Assembly (NCBI RefSeq): GCF_036417845.1
Contig: NC_089978.1
Location: forward strand, 84,128,007-84,192,006
Direction of reading: 5' to 3'
Origin: Apteryx mantelli
Taxonomy: Eukaryota > Chordata > Aves > Apterygiformes > Apterygidae
Length of the DNA: 64,000 nucleotides
A program made the translations under genes and the position numbers. The notes below the pieces were generated by a model. That model searched no databases, was not told where the DNA came from, and saw nothing but the letters and a program-made list of their open reading frames with translations. Each line of letters opens with the position of its first letter. The first letter of the stretch is position 1. Positions 10,821 to 64,000 of this stretch are shown here, piece by piece.

Positions 10821-36427
<25,607 letters not shown>

Positions 36428-47800: not shown

Positions 47801-50800
47801 TTACCTGGGTATTATACTGGATCAGTATAACTCCATGCAGAAGTAATTCTGGTTATTAAACAGCATTCTGATGCCGTGTGTTGCTTTCCAGTCCTTAAAA
47901 ACTGAGTTATCCAGGGAGAAATGTTGATTTTGATTATTGTGCTTTTGATCGTGTTTAAATGTCTTGACTGATCCAAGACTGGTACTACACGCAGGCAGTT
48001 AAGGAGCTGTGTAAGGCAGCAAAATGCTCACAGCCCCTCTGCCTGGGTTGTGCAAGCCACGGCCTGGACTGCCTGCTTGCCTGGCTGGCTGCCTCCCCTC
48101 AAAGGGCCAAGGGTTCTTTGACATTGGCTGCTGCTGAGGAAAAAACTAGTATGTTGTGAAACATTAACAGCCCATTGCTCTCCCATAGTGAATACCCATC
48201 TATAAAGTAGGCAAGGTTGCAAAGACTTACGACTTATTTTGGCAGGTTCTTTACATGCCTGCGGGATTTTGGCTCTCATTTTATTATTATTATTCTTTTA
48301 AGGGACATGCTCAGTTTGAATCTTTCCTTGATTTTTATTTTTACACATATCTTTGATACAGTGTCCTCTTGGCCCTCTGTCCTTACTGGACAATGAAAAC
48401 ACATACTGGTATGAAAAGCATTTGGAAGCATAACCATAAACTGATTTTAGTCATCCTTATGTCTGTCCTGACACCTTGTGGAGGAAGAACCCTCATGATA
48501 ATGTGAAATTTAAATTAAGCATGAAGTTGTTAGTCACTGGGATTTTGATAATTTAGATTAGATTTTAGCTGATTTTAGATTTTCATTAAGTTTCATATGC
48601 CTCTAAAAATTAGCTTTGTTCATTTTTGCATATTATACAATCTCAGTCTGTTGCATTTTTAATACCTTTTGTTTCTCCTTAAATAAAGACTATTCACAGG
48701 AACATAGCCTTTAATCACCTGCCTTGTAATTTTTAGTAGATTCTTTAATGTTTTCTATGATTCACTATGTAGAGAGTGATATTTTGTTCCACAATATTTA
48801 GTGATAAGAGAGGAAAGAAAGCAGCTGAGGAAATACCAATACATGAATTTCCCAGACTTACAATCCTTCCTGCACATCCACTGATAGTCAGTGTGGGAGA
48901 CAGGACCCTGGCTTAGATGTATCTTTGGTCTGATACATATACAAAATATGGTTGATGTGATATCCTATGCCATATGTTCCCATTGCATTAAATTAATACC
49001 TTACTGTTTTCTTATTTTTAGGTGCCTCATGCAAAGATCCCAAATGCATTGCCATATGTCTTGCTCTTCGTGTTTCCAAAGTTGCTGTCAGGAGTTTGGT
49101 TTCCCAAAAGCTTACCCTGTGATGTAGAAGTCTCCAAAGCTACTGTGACAGTGGACTGCAGCGATCGTCGCCTCACGGAAATCCCCCGAGGAATCCCTAC
49201 AAATGCTACCAATCTTACCCTGACTATTAACCATATCCCACATGTCTATCCAACATCCTTTGCTCATCTCGAAAACCTCATGGAGATTGACTTCAGATGC
49301 AACTGTGTGCCTGTCAGACTGGGGCCCAAAGATCATGTCTGCACCAGGACACCTCAGATTGAGAATGGCAGTTTTGCTGCATTGGCAAGATTGAGGTCAT
49401 TGTATTTGGATGCAAATCAGCTGTTAGAAATACCACGGGGTCTTCCCACTACTTTACGTCTGCTGAGCCTGGAGGCAAATAGTATCTTTTCTATCACAAG
49501 AGCAAATTTGTCAGAGCTAAGAAACATAGAGGTATTGTATCTGGGACAGAACTGTTACTACCGTAATCCCTGCAATGTTTCATTTGAAATTGAAGAAACA
49601 GCCTTTCTGGACCTGAAAAATTTAACAATACTGTCCTTGAAGTCTAACAACTTAACTTATATTCCACCCAATTTGTCATCGACTTTAAAGGAATTGTATA
49701 TTTACAATAACATGATTCAAGTGATTCAAGAACATGACTTAATCGCCCTTCACAATTTAGAAATCCTTGATCTAAGTGGTAATTGCCCACGTTGCTATAA
49801 TGCCCCATATCCTTGTACTCCCTGCCCCAAAGGCACAATTGAGATACATCCAAAGGCTTTTCAGTCCTTGAAACAATTAAAAATTCTGCGACTTCACAGT
49901 AACTCTCTTCAGAGAATACTCAGCAGCTGGTTTGAAAACACCAGGAATCTCAAAGAGCTTGACCTCTCCCAAAATTTCCTTGCAAAGGAGATTGGAGATG
50001 CTCAGTTTTTGAAGCTTATTCCTAGCCTTGTAGAGCTGGATCTGTCCTTTAATTTTCAACTGCAGATGTATTCTCCATCCTTGAACCTATCTAAGACATT
50101 TTCCTCCCTTGTTAACCTAGAAATCCTGAGGCTCAGGGGTTATGTCTTTAAAGAACTGAAGCAAGAAAATCTAGACCCATTGCTCCATCTTAGAAATCTA
50201 ACAGTGTTGGATCTTGGGACGAATTTTATCAAAGTTGCTGACCTGAAAGTGTTCAAAAAATTCCCAGCTCTGAAATTCATTGACCTCTCAGTGAATAAAA
50301 TTTCTCCTTCTTCAGGTGAAAGCAACTGTTACAGATTTTGCCCTAATCCCAGAAATTCAGTAGAGCAGTACAATAGGCAAATATTACAAGATATGCATTA
50401 TTTCAGGTATGATGAGTATGGGCGAAGTTGCAAGTCCAAAGACAAAGAGGCTGCTTCCTACCGACCTTTAGTTAATGAGGATTGCCTGAAATATGGAGAA
50501 ACTTTGGACTTAAGCAGAAATAACATATTTTTTATTAGCCCCTCAGATTTCCAGGATCTTGGTTTTCTCAGATGCCTCAACTTGTCAGGTAATGCCATAA
50601 GCCAAACTTTAAATGGAAGTGAATTCTACTACCTGTCTGAACTGAAATATCTGGATTTTTCTAACAATCGGATCGATTTGCTATACTCAACTGCTTTCAA
50701 AGAGCTGAAACTTCTAGAAGTTCTAGATCTAAGCTATAACAAACATTACTTTCTTGCAGAAGGCGTTACACATGTGCTAAATTTTATGAAAAACTTGACT

Positions 50801-52162
50801 TATCTGAAGAAGTTGATGATGAATGAGAATGAGATTTCTACCTCTATTAGCACAGGGATGGAAAGCCAATCTCTTCAAGTTTTAGAATTCAAAGGAAATC
50901 GTTTAGATGTTTTATGGATGGATGGAAATGCTAGATACCTGTCATTCTTCAAGAATCTGACCAGTCTAGAGAAACTGGATATTTCCTTCAATTCTCTCAG
51001 TTTTTTGCCTCCTGGTGTTTTTGAAGCTATGCCTCCAGAACTCAGGATACTCAACTTAACCAGTAACAAGCTGAAGAGTTTCAGCTGGGGAAAACTCCAG
51101 TTACTGGAGAAACTAATAACGTTGGACCTTAGCAATAACCTTCTGCTTACAGTTCCCCGAGAACTGTCTAATTGCTCTTCAACCATCCAAGAACTGATAC
51201 TCCGAAACAATCGCATTCAACGGCTAACTAGACATTTTCTCAGAGGTGCTTTTAATTTGAAATACTTGGACCTCAGCTCAAACAAGATTCAAATAATTAA
51301 GAAATCTAGTTTTCCTGAAAATGTCATCAACAATCTGAAGATGTTGCTTTTGCACGGAAATCCTTTCAAATGCAATTGTGATGCAGTATGGTTTGTTTGG
51401 TGGATCAATCAGACCCAAGTGACTATTCCACTCCTGGCCACAGATGTGACCTGTGCTGGCCCGGGGGCACATAAAGGAAAGAGCGTGGTTTTCTTAGATC
51501 TCTATACCTGTGAGCTGGACACCTCCTATTTGATCCTGTATGCTGTGTCAGCTTCAGCTGTCCTAGGTTTTATGGTGTTCACAGTTATGAGCCATCTCTA
51601 TTTCTGGGATGTGTGGTATAGTTACCATTACTGTACTGCCAAGTTGAAGGGCTATCGCCGTTTACCTTTACTGGATACTTGCTATGATGCTTTTATTGCC
51701 TATGACAATAAAGATCCAGCTGTGAATGAGTGGGTGCTGACAGAATTGGTTGAAAAATTGGAAGATCAAAAAGTCAGACAGTTCAACCTATGCCTGGAAG
51801 AAAGGGACTGGCTCCCAGGACAGCCAGTCTTTGACAACCTTTCCCAGAGTATTCAGCTGAGCAAAAAGACCATATTTGTCCTGACCAACAAATATATGAA
51901 AAGTGGAAGCTTCAAGACAACATTTTACATGGCCCACCAGCGACTTATAGATGAAAAAATGGATGTAATTATTTTGATATTTCTTGAGAAGGTTTTGCAG
52001 AAGTCCCGGTATGTCCGGTTGAGGAAGAGGCTGTGCAGAAGTTCTGTCCTGGAATGGCCAACTAACCCTCGATCTCAGCCTTACTTCTGGCAGTGCCTGA
52101 AAAATGCAATAACTATGAACAATACCCTGGCTTACAACAAACTTCTCCAAGAAACCGTTTAG
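44705..52162 (+). CDS. TLR7: Toll-like receptor 7, complete
   Basis: Endosomal receptor for single-stranded RNA and guanosine-like ligands; it signals through MyD88 to NF-kB and IRF7. Coding exons are 44705-44707 and 49022-52162, giving 1047 residues (1049 in human). Visible in order are a signal peptide (about 1-26), an N-terminal cap with C34, and leucine-rich repeats to about residue 783. The last include NCPRCYNAPYPCTPC and a Z-loop insertion around 430-500 that is rich in Cys and basic residues. A C-terminal cap follows (C785, C787), then a membrane segment at about 837-857 and a TIR domain from C888. The TIR domain keeps box 1 (CYDAFIAYD), the BB loop RDWLPGQP with P933, and FW near the end. 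The frame is uninterrupted, so the receptor should be functional. One copy only is present. TLR8 is excluded by closer match to TLR7 throughout. Confidence 0.97.
44791..44829. repeat. (CTTT)n microsatellite
   Basis: About ten copies of a pyrimidine-only tetramer lie 84 bases downstream of the TLR7 start-exon donor. Confidence 0.92.
45607..45798. mobile_element. Candidate small inverted-repeat (MITE-like) element
   Basis: CACCTAATTTCAGGCATGTA at the left end is matched by an inverted copy at the right end. Reading inward, about 21 of 27 bases agree and the outermost ten are identical (CACCTAATTT / AAATTAGGTG). The similarity ends abruptly outside the arms. The enclosed 190 bases are richer in GC than their surroundings and hold no reading frame. 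The form suggests a small non-autonomous DNA transposon. I cannot name the family, and no target-site duplication is clear. Confidence 0.45.
49022..52162 (+). CDS. TLR7: TLR7 main coding exon
   Basis: Encodes Val2 to the C-terminus (ETV, stop TAG at 52160-52162) in one exon, as is usual for this subfamily. It begins GTG CCT CAT directly after the acceptor AG. The GTG is Val2, not a start codon. The next in-frame Met is about residue 88, beyond the signal peptide and cap, so starting there would break the receptor. Many N-glycosylation sequons (for example NATNLT) sit in the repeat domain, as expected for an endolysosomal ectodomain. Confidence 0.97.
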   Translation: MPHAKIPNALPYVLLFVFPKLLSGVWFPKSLPCDVEVSKATVTVDCSDRRLTEIPRGIPTNATNLTLTINHIPHVYPTSFAHLENLMEIDFRCNCVPVRLGPKDHVCTRTPQIENGSFAALARLRSLYLDANQLLEIPRGLPTTLRLLSLEANSIFSITRANLSELRNIEVLYLGQNCYYRNPCNVSFEIEETAFLDLKNLTILSLKSNNLTYIPPNLSSTLKELYIYNNMIQVIQEHDLIALHNLEILDLSGNCPRCYNAPYPCTPCPKGTIEIHPKAFQSLKQLKILRLHSNSLQRILSSWFENTRNLKELDLSQNFLAKEIGDAQFLKLIPSLVELDLSFNFQLQMYSPSLNLSKTFSSLVNLEILRLRGYVFKELKQENLDPLLHLRNLTVLDLGTNFIKVADLKVFKKFPALKFIDLSVNKISPSSGESNCYRFCPNPRNSVEQYNRQILQDMHYFRYDEYGRSCKSKDKEAASYRPLVNEDCLKYGETLDLSRNNIFFISPSDFQDLGFLRCLNLSGNAISQTLNGSEFYYLSELKYLDFSNNRIDLLYSTAFKELKLLEVLDLSYNKHYFLAEGVTHVLNFMKNLTYLKKLMMNENEISTSISTGMESQSLQVLEFKGNRLDVLWMDGNARYLSFFKNLTSLEKLDISFNSLSFLPPGVFEAMPPELRILNLTSNKLKSFSWGKLQLLEKLITLDLSNNLLLTVPRELSNCSSTIQELILRNNRIQRLTRHFLRGAFNLKYLDLSSNKIQIIKKSSFPENVINNLKMLLLHGNPFKCNCDAVWFVWWINQTQVTIPLLATDVTCAGPGAHKGKSVVFLDLYTCELDTSYLILYAVSASAVLGFMVFTVMSHLYFWDVWYSYHYCTAKLKGYRRLPLLDTCYDAFIAYDNKDPAVNEWVLTELVEKLEDQKVRQFNLCLEERDWLPGQPVFDNLSQSIQLSKKTIFVLTNKYMKSGSFKTTFYMAHQRLIDEKMDVIILIFLEKVLQKSRYVRLRKRLCRSSVLEWPTNPRSQPYFWQCLKNAITMNNTLAYNKLLQETV

Positions 52163-61159: not shown

Positions 61160-62559
61160 TCTTCCCTAAAGAAAGATTGTAATATGTTGTCAAGACTACA
61201 GCAGAGCACAGTAGCTCTTGTGCCTTGGTAACATGATACAGCATTTTTTCATGGACAGAAGTGAAAATTTTCTTGTAGTATAACTGAATGGAAAATGCAT
61301 GTTGGCAGAATGAAACGATCCAAGCTGGAGTATGACCTGGATGTAATTTCAGTATATTTCTGTTCCTGAGAAAGAATATCATGAGATGGTTATTTCTCAT
61401 CTAGTGCTCACATTCCTCTGCCTGCTGATCACCACATGCCCTCTCCATCCCATCAGATAGATAGACACACTGGTTCTGCTTCCTATTTTTCTTTTCACTT
61501 TTTATTGATCTTCCTTCTCACCTCACTTCTACCTCCTGTTTTATGGGGGCTCTTCCTGCAGAGAAAACAAATTGATTCAACATTAATCTTAATTGCTTGC
61601 ATTCTCTCTAGCCATAATGTTTTTGACTTCATTAGAGATGATAAAATATCTCATGCTAACAATTCAGTATGAGATATTTTATATGCATGTAGATACTAAC
61701 TAAAAGAATATCTAGGTTATCCTTCACATCATTTTACAGTGATGAAGACGACACATGCCTGCACTGTATTTTGACAGACATTTCTCTTCATCTTACTGCA
61801 GAACCATTAAATTAGTTGACAGCATCTGTGCTTCATTCTACAAGTAAACAGTTAACTCTTTCAGGATAAATCTGTATTCAATATTTTTTTGTTTATCATG
61901 AAAGCATTTGGGGTTATTTTTACTTCGTGTGATTGTGTGTGACAGTATTTTCTAGGAACAGCTATACCAGAGAATTGCACAGCATTTCAAGTTTGTTGCT
62001 GCATGTGATCCAGCTGTAAATATAAATTTTTGAATTTTCAGGATAGAGGACAACTTCATAACATTTTTCATAACTAAAGCTTTTCCTTCAGTTTGATTTC
62101 TAACTAACTGGAGGGTCTTTGCAGACTTATAATGGCTGATGTGAATGCTTCCTGTATGTTTTCCTTGTGAGTGGTGCTTTCTTGACCTCAAGTCTATGGC
62201 CAGAGTACAACCAAGCTCCACCTTGATCATTTTAACACAGATTATGGGCATACTGCCTGGTCTGTACTAGACTATTAACACCTTTTTTTTAGTATGTGAA
62301 AAGTAGCATGATCAAGCTTTGAGTTTAAATGAGGCCTGGGAAAATTAGAGAAGCAGTGCATCTGATACTTTGTCTTGACATCAGTTATCATGACATTTTA
62401 AGAGTACTGAAGAGATTTCTCTGGAGGATTTTTACAATTTTAAGCACCTTCAGACTTTGATACTGGACTGGAATTAGCATATTAAGGCCAAAAAAATCTG
62501 ATTACGATAGGTCTCCAACCTTTGTTTACAGCAAATGCAATTGCCTCAAGTTTAAAAAG

Positions 62560-64000
62560 GTTAAAGGAACTGCGCTCTTAATGGTGATCAGCTGAAGACA
62601 GTACCCAGAGGCATTCCACCTGCTATTGCCTTGATATGGCTCATGTCCAGCAACATCGTCTCCATCACAACAGACACTTTCTCAGCATCCCAGACTTCAG
62701 GGAACTGTGTAGGGACGAGAACCATTATTTTGCTAACTCTCGTGGGAAATGATTTTCCATAGAATATGGGGTTCTCTCTGCTCTTGCCAACCTGACTGTG
62801 CTGTCACTCTCACACTATAACCTGACCTAGGTGCCATCCTGCCTACCCGTATCTCTCCAGAAGCTTGACCTAAGTCATACTAACATAAGGAACATCTTGT
62901 TCATCTAATAGTTCTTGATGCAAGTTTGAGCTGTCCCAGATGCCTCAATGCTCCTCTTCCACGTGAAGCTTGCTCTGGAAACTCTCCCATTCAAATACAT
63001 CTTTAAACATAGCTTTCCAAAATCTTAACAAATTAAAGACTTTAACTCTGACTAGCGCTGTGCTTACTGAAGTACTTGTCTGGTTTCAGAACGAGCCACA
63101 GCTGTGGGTGCTTCATTTGGTGTCCAACTTCTTCACACAGGCGACGGACTCTGGAGAGCTCTTGCAGAGTTTGTCTGCTCTGGAGGGGCTGGATTTATCT
63201 TTCAATTACCAGAAGCAAGTCTACTCCTGGTATCTAAAACTTCCTCAACACTTTTCAGTTCTAATATCATTGGAGCAATTAGATATTAAAGAGTATGTCT
63301 TCAAAGAACTAGACAAAGTGCATTTAAACCTCTTTTTATCATTAAAAAGCTAAATATTCTCAATTTTAGTCCAAACTTTATTAAAAAAGCTGTTATGTCT
63401 GTCTTCCAGGAATTTAAGAACCACACAGACTTATCGCTGAAAGAAAGTAAAATAGTCCCACAAACAAAGGAAATCAATATATTTCTTGTTTGAGAAAAAA
63501 AAAGACAACTTGACAGATTACTCTTACAGCTAATAGTGAAAACCCAAGTCATATGCAGCATATTCTGATTATGAAAAAGAGCAAATATACTATTTAGATA
63601 ATCAGCACTGTAAATCATGTAGAAAAGTCTTGGATTTGAGTCTAAAAATATTTTCTTCATTAATGCAAGTCAGTTTAAAGATCTTAAGGGCATAGTTTGT
63701 TTGAATTTGTCTTCAAATGCCCTTGGTGAAGCTTTCAATGGCACTGAATTAATCTTTTCTCCTAATCTGAAATATTTAGCTCTCTCTTTTAACAAATTGG
63801 GTTTCACCACTTATTTGCATTTAAAGAATTACGTAACCTTGAGGTATTAGACCTCAGCTATAACAAACATTACTTTTGGTGGCAGGTTTGGAGCAGAACC
63901 TCCTATTTGTTGAAAACATTCCTAAATTAAAAGTTTTAAATTTAAGTTTTCTCTATTGATAATATCTGAACTAAGAAGTTCACCCCTTCAAAAATTAGAA
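62560..64000 (+). pseudogene. TLR8: TLR8 pseudogene (partial, runs off the window)
   Basis: Leucine-rich repeat blocks align in order with the TLR8 ectodomain, from roughly residue 150 to 620, but in shifting frames. The blocks are QLKTVPRGIPPAI (from 62589), LSALANLTVLSLSHYNLT (62774), SCPRCLNAP (62929), LSFNYQKQVYSWYLKLPQ and EYVFKEL (63200-63310). Then come LNILNFSPNFIKKAVMSVFQ (63350), VLDLSLK (63627), NASQFKDLKGIVCLNLSSNA (63662) and FKELRNLEVLDLSYNKHYF (63820). Stops occur at 62750, 62828, 62906, 62909 and 63957, with about eight frame changes. Its place after TLR7 on the same strand, and the VCLNLSSNA and LSYNKHYF blocks, fit TLR8. No membrane or TIR part is in the window. A second decayed TLR7 copy is the alternative, but position and the shorter loop favour TLR8. 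Confidence 0.85.

Follow-up and report, generated by a model that had tools for sequence, protein, structure and literature searches.

The loss of TLR8, a virus-sensing immune gene, has been published for chicken, duck and goose (PMC7157566) and, by Liu et al. (PMC6946030), for every bird in their study, and the turkey genome paper reports it for 'all three birds' in its comparison. The TLR8-like sequence of chicken is interrupted by a 6.1 kb insertion that has CR1 homology (Philbin et al. 2005, as relayed by the review PMC7157566), and a 1.4 kb CR1 separates TLR8 fragments in duck; the relevant section of that review describes TLR8-CR1 insertions as present in galliform and absent in non-galliform birds. 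Turtles and crocodilians carry duplicate TLR8 genes, TLR8B and TLR8C, of which TLR8C is described as a pseudogene for green turtle and for desert tortoise, and birds have no TLR8 orthologue according to the part of PMC9951749 that treats these genes.

We analysed 64 kb of the kiwi genome (C1:84128007-84192006 of a 1.504 Gb assembly), called the window below, together with the next 100 kb, for which the window coordinates are continued beyond 64000. In our reading, to which we assign a probability of about 0.9, a unitary TLR8 pseudogene occupies its ancestral place here, with 62415-64000 as its first half, and this pseudogene is the first of three tandem TLR8-like pseudogenes (copies 1, 2 and 3) between TLR7 and TMSB4X, which suggests that three neighbouring TLR8-like genes, rather than a single one, were lost in the kiwi lineage. 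The chicken pseudogene is similar in its location beside an intact TLR7, in its stop codons and in the involvement of CR1, but it carries the 6.1 kb insert, whereas kiwi copy 1 has none and copy 3 has a LINE insert; multiple TLR8 copies are not mentioned in the chicken account as given in PMC7157566. Duck and goose resemble kiwi in that TLR8 fragments, interspersed with CR1 or other retroelements, follow downstream of TLR7, but these fragments are ascribed, in the account of PMC7157566, to one TLR8 gene and the kiwi remnants form an array of three, which raises the question of whether the duck and goose fragments stem from different copies. Turtles and crocodilians share the presence of several TLR8 genes, as described in PMC9951749, but all three kiwi copies are dead. 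The published accounts, as far as they treat the locus, describe the loss of one gene, linked in fowl to a CR1 insertion, while the array would represent the loss of a small family of RNA sensors. In searches of mostly open-access papers, we found no report of several tandem TLR8 pseudogenes in a bird, or of lesions shared among them.

Homology and lesions of copy 1

Copy 1 was aligned with a purpose-written, codon-level and frameshift-tolerant protein-to-DNA aligner, with the human TLR8 ectodomain chain as reference. On the forward strand, 62415-63947 aligns with residues 56-570 of this chain with a score of 713, against a mean of 54 and a maximum of 75 for 100 dinucleotide shuffles of 62400-64000, and a score of 40 for the reverse strand. 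The TLR8-like repeat blocks that a preliminary description had placed at 62560-64000 are thus real, and recognisable homology begins 145 bases ahead of 62560, at 62415; some aligner settings pull the start back to 62186 or 61948, and an N-terminal extension upstream of 62415 is not convincing (best scores 29.5-51.5 at a cheap shift penalty). The window truncates the gene: copy 1 extends to about 65212, including the transmembrane (TM) and TIR regions, and aligns from end to end with no large insert, so that a CR1 insert within the coding sequence is absent from it.

The same aligner gave, for the window part, 665.5 with the kiwi's own TLR7 and 625.5 with macaque TLR7, references whose shuffle maxima (n=100) were 85.5 and 86, respectively. 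The order is the same for the whole ectodomain with its flank (human TLR8 912, own TLR7 874, macaque TLR7 796.5) and for the full length of copy 1, which scored 1175 with human TLR8 extended by the human TM and TIR tail, and 1065 with own TLR7. The longest open stretch of copy 1 (62967-63353, forward strand, 128 amino acids), an unedited query that does not depend on the alignment, has human TLR8 as its best match in the PDB (phmmer, 64.6 bits, E 1.2e-16), followed by 52.5 bits for the best TLR7 and 43.3 bits for the best TLR9, and it matches the Pfam family LRR_8 (E 1.3e-6). The TLR8 identity proposed for the remnant is therefore supported by the order TLR8, TLR7, TLR9 in the unedited frame and by the alignment scores, in which TLR8 and not TLR7 comes first, by a modest margin in each case.

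From 62577 onward, the alignment reproduced exactly the frame run given in the preliminary description (0,2,1,0,2,0,2,1,0), and it added two blocks upstream, 62415-62486 in frame 0 and 62489-62572 in frame 2. There are 10 frameshifts over 62415-63947, a count that varies with the shift penalty (8-16 at penalties 7-16, and 26-34 at the cheap penalty 5). Two of the five stops listed earlier, TGA at 62750 and TAG at 62828, lie in matched codons; the other three are conditional or fall outside the alignment. To be in frame, those at 62906 and 62909 need the frame-2 block to continue beyond 62891, and the alignment has shifted by then; 63957 is just beyond the end of the window-part alignment, and the longer alignment passes over it through a shift at 63951 but has TGA 63967 in frame. 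Stops absent from that list were found at 62475 and 63491 in matched codons and at 63531, 63534 and 63537 in an inserted stretch, which makes 4 matched stops and 3 inserted ones for 62415-63947. Over the whole of copy 1 (62415-65212) there are 22 frameshifts and, in 898 matched codons, 13 stops, with 3 more in inserts; death by many lesions, as had been proposed, is borne out along the full length.

The modest margin between TLR8 and TLR7 bears on the idea that copy 1 is a decayed tandem duplicate of the bird TLR7, a gene reported as duplicated in some birds (PMC6946030, in its remarks on TLR7). The closeness of the own TLR7 score (665.5 vs 713) speaks for such an origin, as do the mixed 50-column windows, in some of which copy 1 is as close or closer to TLR7, and two six-sequence trees in which the remnants form no clade and copy 1 lies beside TLR7 with supports of 85 and 49; these trees are unrooted, have very long branches and contain neither a TLR9 outgroup nor reptile sequences. 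The four-taxon test, made on human TLR8, the two TLR7 sequences (macaque and own) and a read-through of copy 1 in which X replaces stops and shifts, points the other way: 31 informative sites join copy 1 with TLR8, against 3 with own TLR7 and 6 with macaque TLR7, both groupings of copy 1 with a TLR7 are rejected (delta lnL 49; AU 5e-6 and 7e-10), and the split uniting copy 1 with TLR8 has a support of 100, in an unrooted tree that cannot separate a position inside TLR8 from one on the connecting branch. In addition, a duplicate of bird age would be expected to be no more distant from own TLR7 than macaque TLR7 is in the same region (344/524 identical), but copy 1 shares only 184/491 residues with own TLR7, compared with 183/492 with macaque TLR7 and 196/482 with human TLR8, the read-through being TLR8-guided. 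At the DNA level, blastn between copy 1 and own TLR7 gave one 29-base match, and none for copies 2 and 3. A TLR7 duplicate is thus rejected by the four-taxon test (31 vs 3 sites; AU 5e-6) and we regard it as highly improbable.

Even less credit can be given to a working TLR8 broken only by sequencing or assembly errors. Small shifts are indeed a frequent assembly error, but TLR7, 10 kb away on the same contig, has 0 frameshifts in 3138 bp against 10 in 1533 bp for copy 1 (p about 1e-5), the stops are substitutions, and much of the TIR is missing from copies 2 and 3; an artefact was rejected on the frameshift contrast. Slightly less remote, though still very improbable, is a new role for the remnant, as a transcribed RNA or as an enhancer for TLR7: the homology is still legible after a long time, which is the only, and indirect, argument in its favour, while the lesions are distributed over the whole length and the window has no Rfam match at the gathering threshold. 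A decayed TLR8 that presumably has no present function thus remains our preferred reading of copy 1.

The tandem array and the lesions common to copies 1 and 2

The genes of the locus are all on the forward strand, in the order PRPS2, TLR7, three TLR8-like remnants and TMSB4X. PRPS2 is represented by seven blocks of coding exons (11034..36424), found by tblastn with human PRPS2; seven of the eight matches were kept (81-100% identity), the eighth (E 2.0) was discarded as chance, and exon 1 has PRPS2 as its best PDB match. TLR7 is intact, with a main coding frame of 1046 open amino acids at 49022..52162 that includes LRRs and a TIR (Pfam) and matches human TLR7 in the PDB with 1553.9 bits. The right flank is marked by a TMSB4X exon at 123571 (extended coordinates). 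In human, the locus has PRPS2 upstream and TLR8 in the slot between TLR7 and TMSB4X, and the position of the remnant, on the same strand between PRPS2-TLR7 and TMSB4X, agrees with the earlier proposal that it is in its ancestral place. No further TLR7/8-like remnant was found in the 164 kb: among 218 tiles of 3 kb, the 202 with no overlap with TLR7 or the three remnants on the forward strand reached at most 74 (TLR8) and 83 (TLR7) on both strands, which is within the shuffle range. Tiles that contain the TIR of copy 1 or copy 2 score higher with the TLR7 probe than with the TLR8 probe, which there has no TIR.

Copy 2 lies on the forward strand at 75313-77626 by protein alignment, and extends to 77696 by DNA. 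As a whole it scores 611 (510 for own TLR7), with 25 shifts and 13 matched stops. Copy 3, also on the forward strand, is in two parts. The first, 87268-88873, has 16 shifts and 6 matched stops, and the second, 91393-92135, which a DNA match prolongs to 92262, has 4 shifts and 5 matched stops. With human TLR8, own TLR7 and macaque TLR7, respectively, the ectodomain scores are 500, 428 and 452 for copy 2, 414, 364 and 292 for the first part of copy 3, and 284, 190.5 and 208.5 for its second part. Every copy scores lower against the read-throughs of the other copies than against human TLR8, and the ectodomains are far apart, with a reference-anchored nucleotide identity of 0.42-0.49 and only one short blastn match per pair (47-209 columns, 70-83%). 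Both downstream copies have lost parts of the TIR. Copy 2 lacks about 282 bases of it, positions equivalent to 64860 and 65143 of copy 1 being joined at 77629-77631, and copy 3 lacks the TM and most of the TIR, its sole blastn counterpart there being 92160-92262, 81.7% identical to 65078-65180 of copy 1.

Copy 3 is split by a LINE insert, from about 88.76 kb (left edge placed by eye) to 91.40 kb, which terminates in GATTCTATGAT and is immediately followed by the resumption of TLR8-like sequence; from this end and general knowledge, we take the insert to be of CR1 type. Its 3' 1.1 kb is 72.5% identical, in inverted orientation, to an element at 78479-79624 beside copy 2, where a CR1-type LINE directly follows the pseudogene and has a 383-amino-acid open frame on the reverse strand (78924-80072) that matches the reverse transcriptase family PF00078 (E 3.2e-32). 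Three other pieces, two of them from the copy 3 insert, had no Pfam match. In the window, a probe for the CR1 3' end gave a single weak 29-base match, at 56460-56432.

In contrast with the ectodomains, the TM/TIR stretches of copies 1 and 2 are close: 64622-64860 and 77394-77631 are 84.5% identical (K80 0.184, 238 aligned bases), as are, at 82%, 65143-65210 and 77629-77696, and identity sinks to background on either side. Three lesions are common to the two copies, a TGA at 64686 and 77458, a one-base shift at 64725 and 77497, and a second one-base shift at 64835 and near 77601, while the TGA at 64799 is in copy 1 only. The common broken frame path is visible in a raw three-frame reading of both copies, with no aligner involved; at a cheaper shift penalty the aligner gives copy 2 extra shifts in this stretch. 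Their agreement in one stop and two one-base shifts means that already dead sequence was copied between copies 1 and 2. The mechanism that fits best is gene conversion or some similar recombination, because the common stretch stops close to where the coding region ends. A broken TIR could equally be spread by unequal crossing-over or by duplicating a dead gene at a late stage, and the array is tandem; but the common stretches sit behind very different ectodomains, and similarity stops by about 65210/77696, where a crossover would be expected to carry downstream DNA as well, which leaves this a doubtful, though not negligible, alternative to gene conversion. Elsewhere in the genome, two pairs of TLR genes are homogenised and offer a living counterpart to exchange in the dead TLR8 array: the tandem TLR1-like genes at C5:38417059 and 38425147 are 97.7% identical over 799 amino acids, and the TLR2-like genes at C5:62024440 and 62013134 are 80% identical over 584 amino acids.

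The following history would account for the locus. An ancestor of the kiwi lineage would have had at least three old and divergent TLR8-type genes, all three of which would have lost their function while TLR7 remained intact; the dead copies would then have accumulated frameshifts and stops, deletions in the TIR and, in the case of copy 3, an inserted LINE, and gene conversion or a similar recombination from an already dead donor may have moved the broken TM/TIR stretch between copies 1 and 2. We consider it slightly better than an even chance that what birds lost was a tandem array of three or more ancient TLR8-type receptors, which predated birds and had the duplicated TLR8 genes of turtles and crocodilians as relatives, and that the dead members went on exchanging sequence by gene conversion. 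If the array reading is true, shared lesions in avian TLR8 remnants are not simply evidence of a shared ancestry of the loss, and because lesions can spread between dead copies, a single ancestral loss should be inferred from shared stops only with caution.

Age of the loss and TLR genes elsewhere in the genome

The age of copy 1 was estimated by simulating the neutral decay of TLR7 until the stop count was reached, with an assumed transition bias and an assumed CpG factor. The 13 stops in 898 codons are reached at about 0.16 substitutions per site, 0.10 and 0.25 each marking a tail of about 10%; the window part only gives 0.08-0.16 substitutions per site for 4 to 7 stops. At an assumed bird rate near 2e-9 per site per year, the decay of copy 1 would represent some 50-125 million years, while the conversion, at 0.092 per copy, would be about 45 million years old, both as orders of magnitude. 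The old loss deduced earlier from the heavy decay fits such a value of about 0.16, but only roughly, the dates needing an assumed rate. Liu et al. (2019), in the part of PMC6946030 that concerns these genes, describe TLR8 and TLR9 as gone from all birds and place the loss in the ancestor of modern birds, and our stop count does not contradict an ancestral loss, with which it is compatible and of which it is no proof. Three old dead copies, the first of them with no large insertion, alter how the loss should be dated, and since any good bird assembly gives access to the locus, one loss versus several is directly testable.

A search of the assembly with TLR7, in which 44 of the 190 candidates were scored, found no intact TLR7/8/9-type gene other than TLR7, in an assembly that may be incomplete. 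TLR7 itself was recovered at 100%, copy 1 was matched with many stops, and the next intact frame is 33% identical; the TLR7, TLR3 and TLR13 structures match this last gene about equally, TLR8 and TLR9 far lower. The extension of the known avian TLR8 loss to the present species, proposed in the preliminary description and expected from the literature, is thus confirmed as far as a dead remnant and no detected intact copy allow. A search of the assembly for TIR domains, in which 34 of 34 candidates were scored, yielded 24 matches, and the three remnants are not among them. The repertoire of bird TLRs is usually listed as ten, and the kiwi may have one more: an open TLR gene, whose closest solved structure is TLR2, lies at C31:2113501-2114487 on a 4.7 Mb contig (L027:1168-3987, reverse strand). 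It is 30% identical to the TLR1-like pair and 36-37% to the TLR2-like pair over a shorter stretch, and it has a repetitive Thr/Asp/Val tail. A search of the assembly for mitochondrial cytochrome b had a single match to that family, a degenerate nuclear fragment at C5:76869236-76869688.
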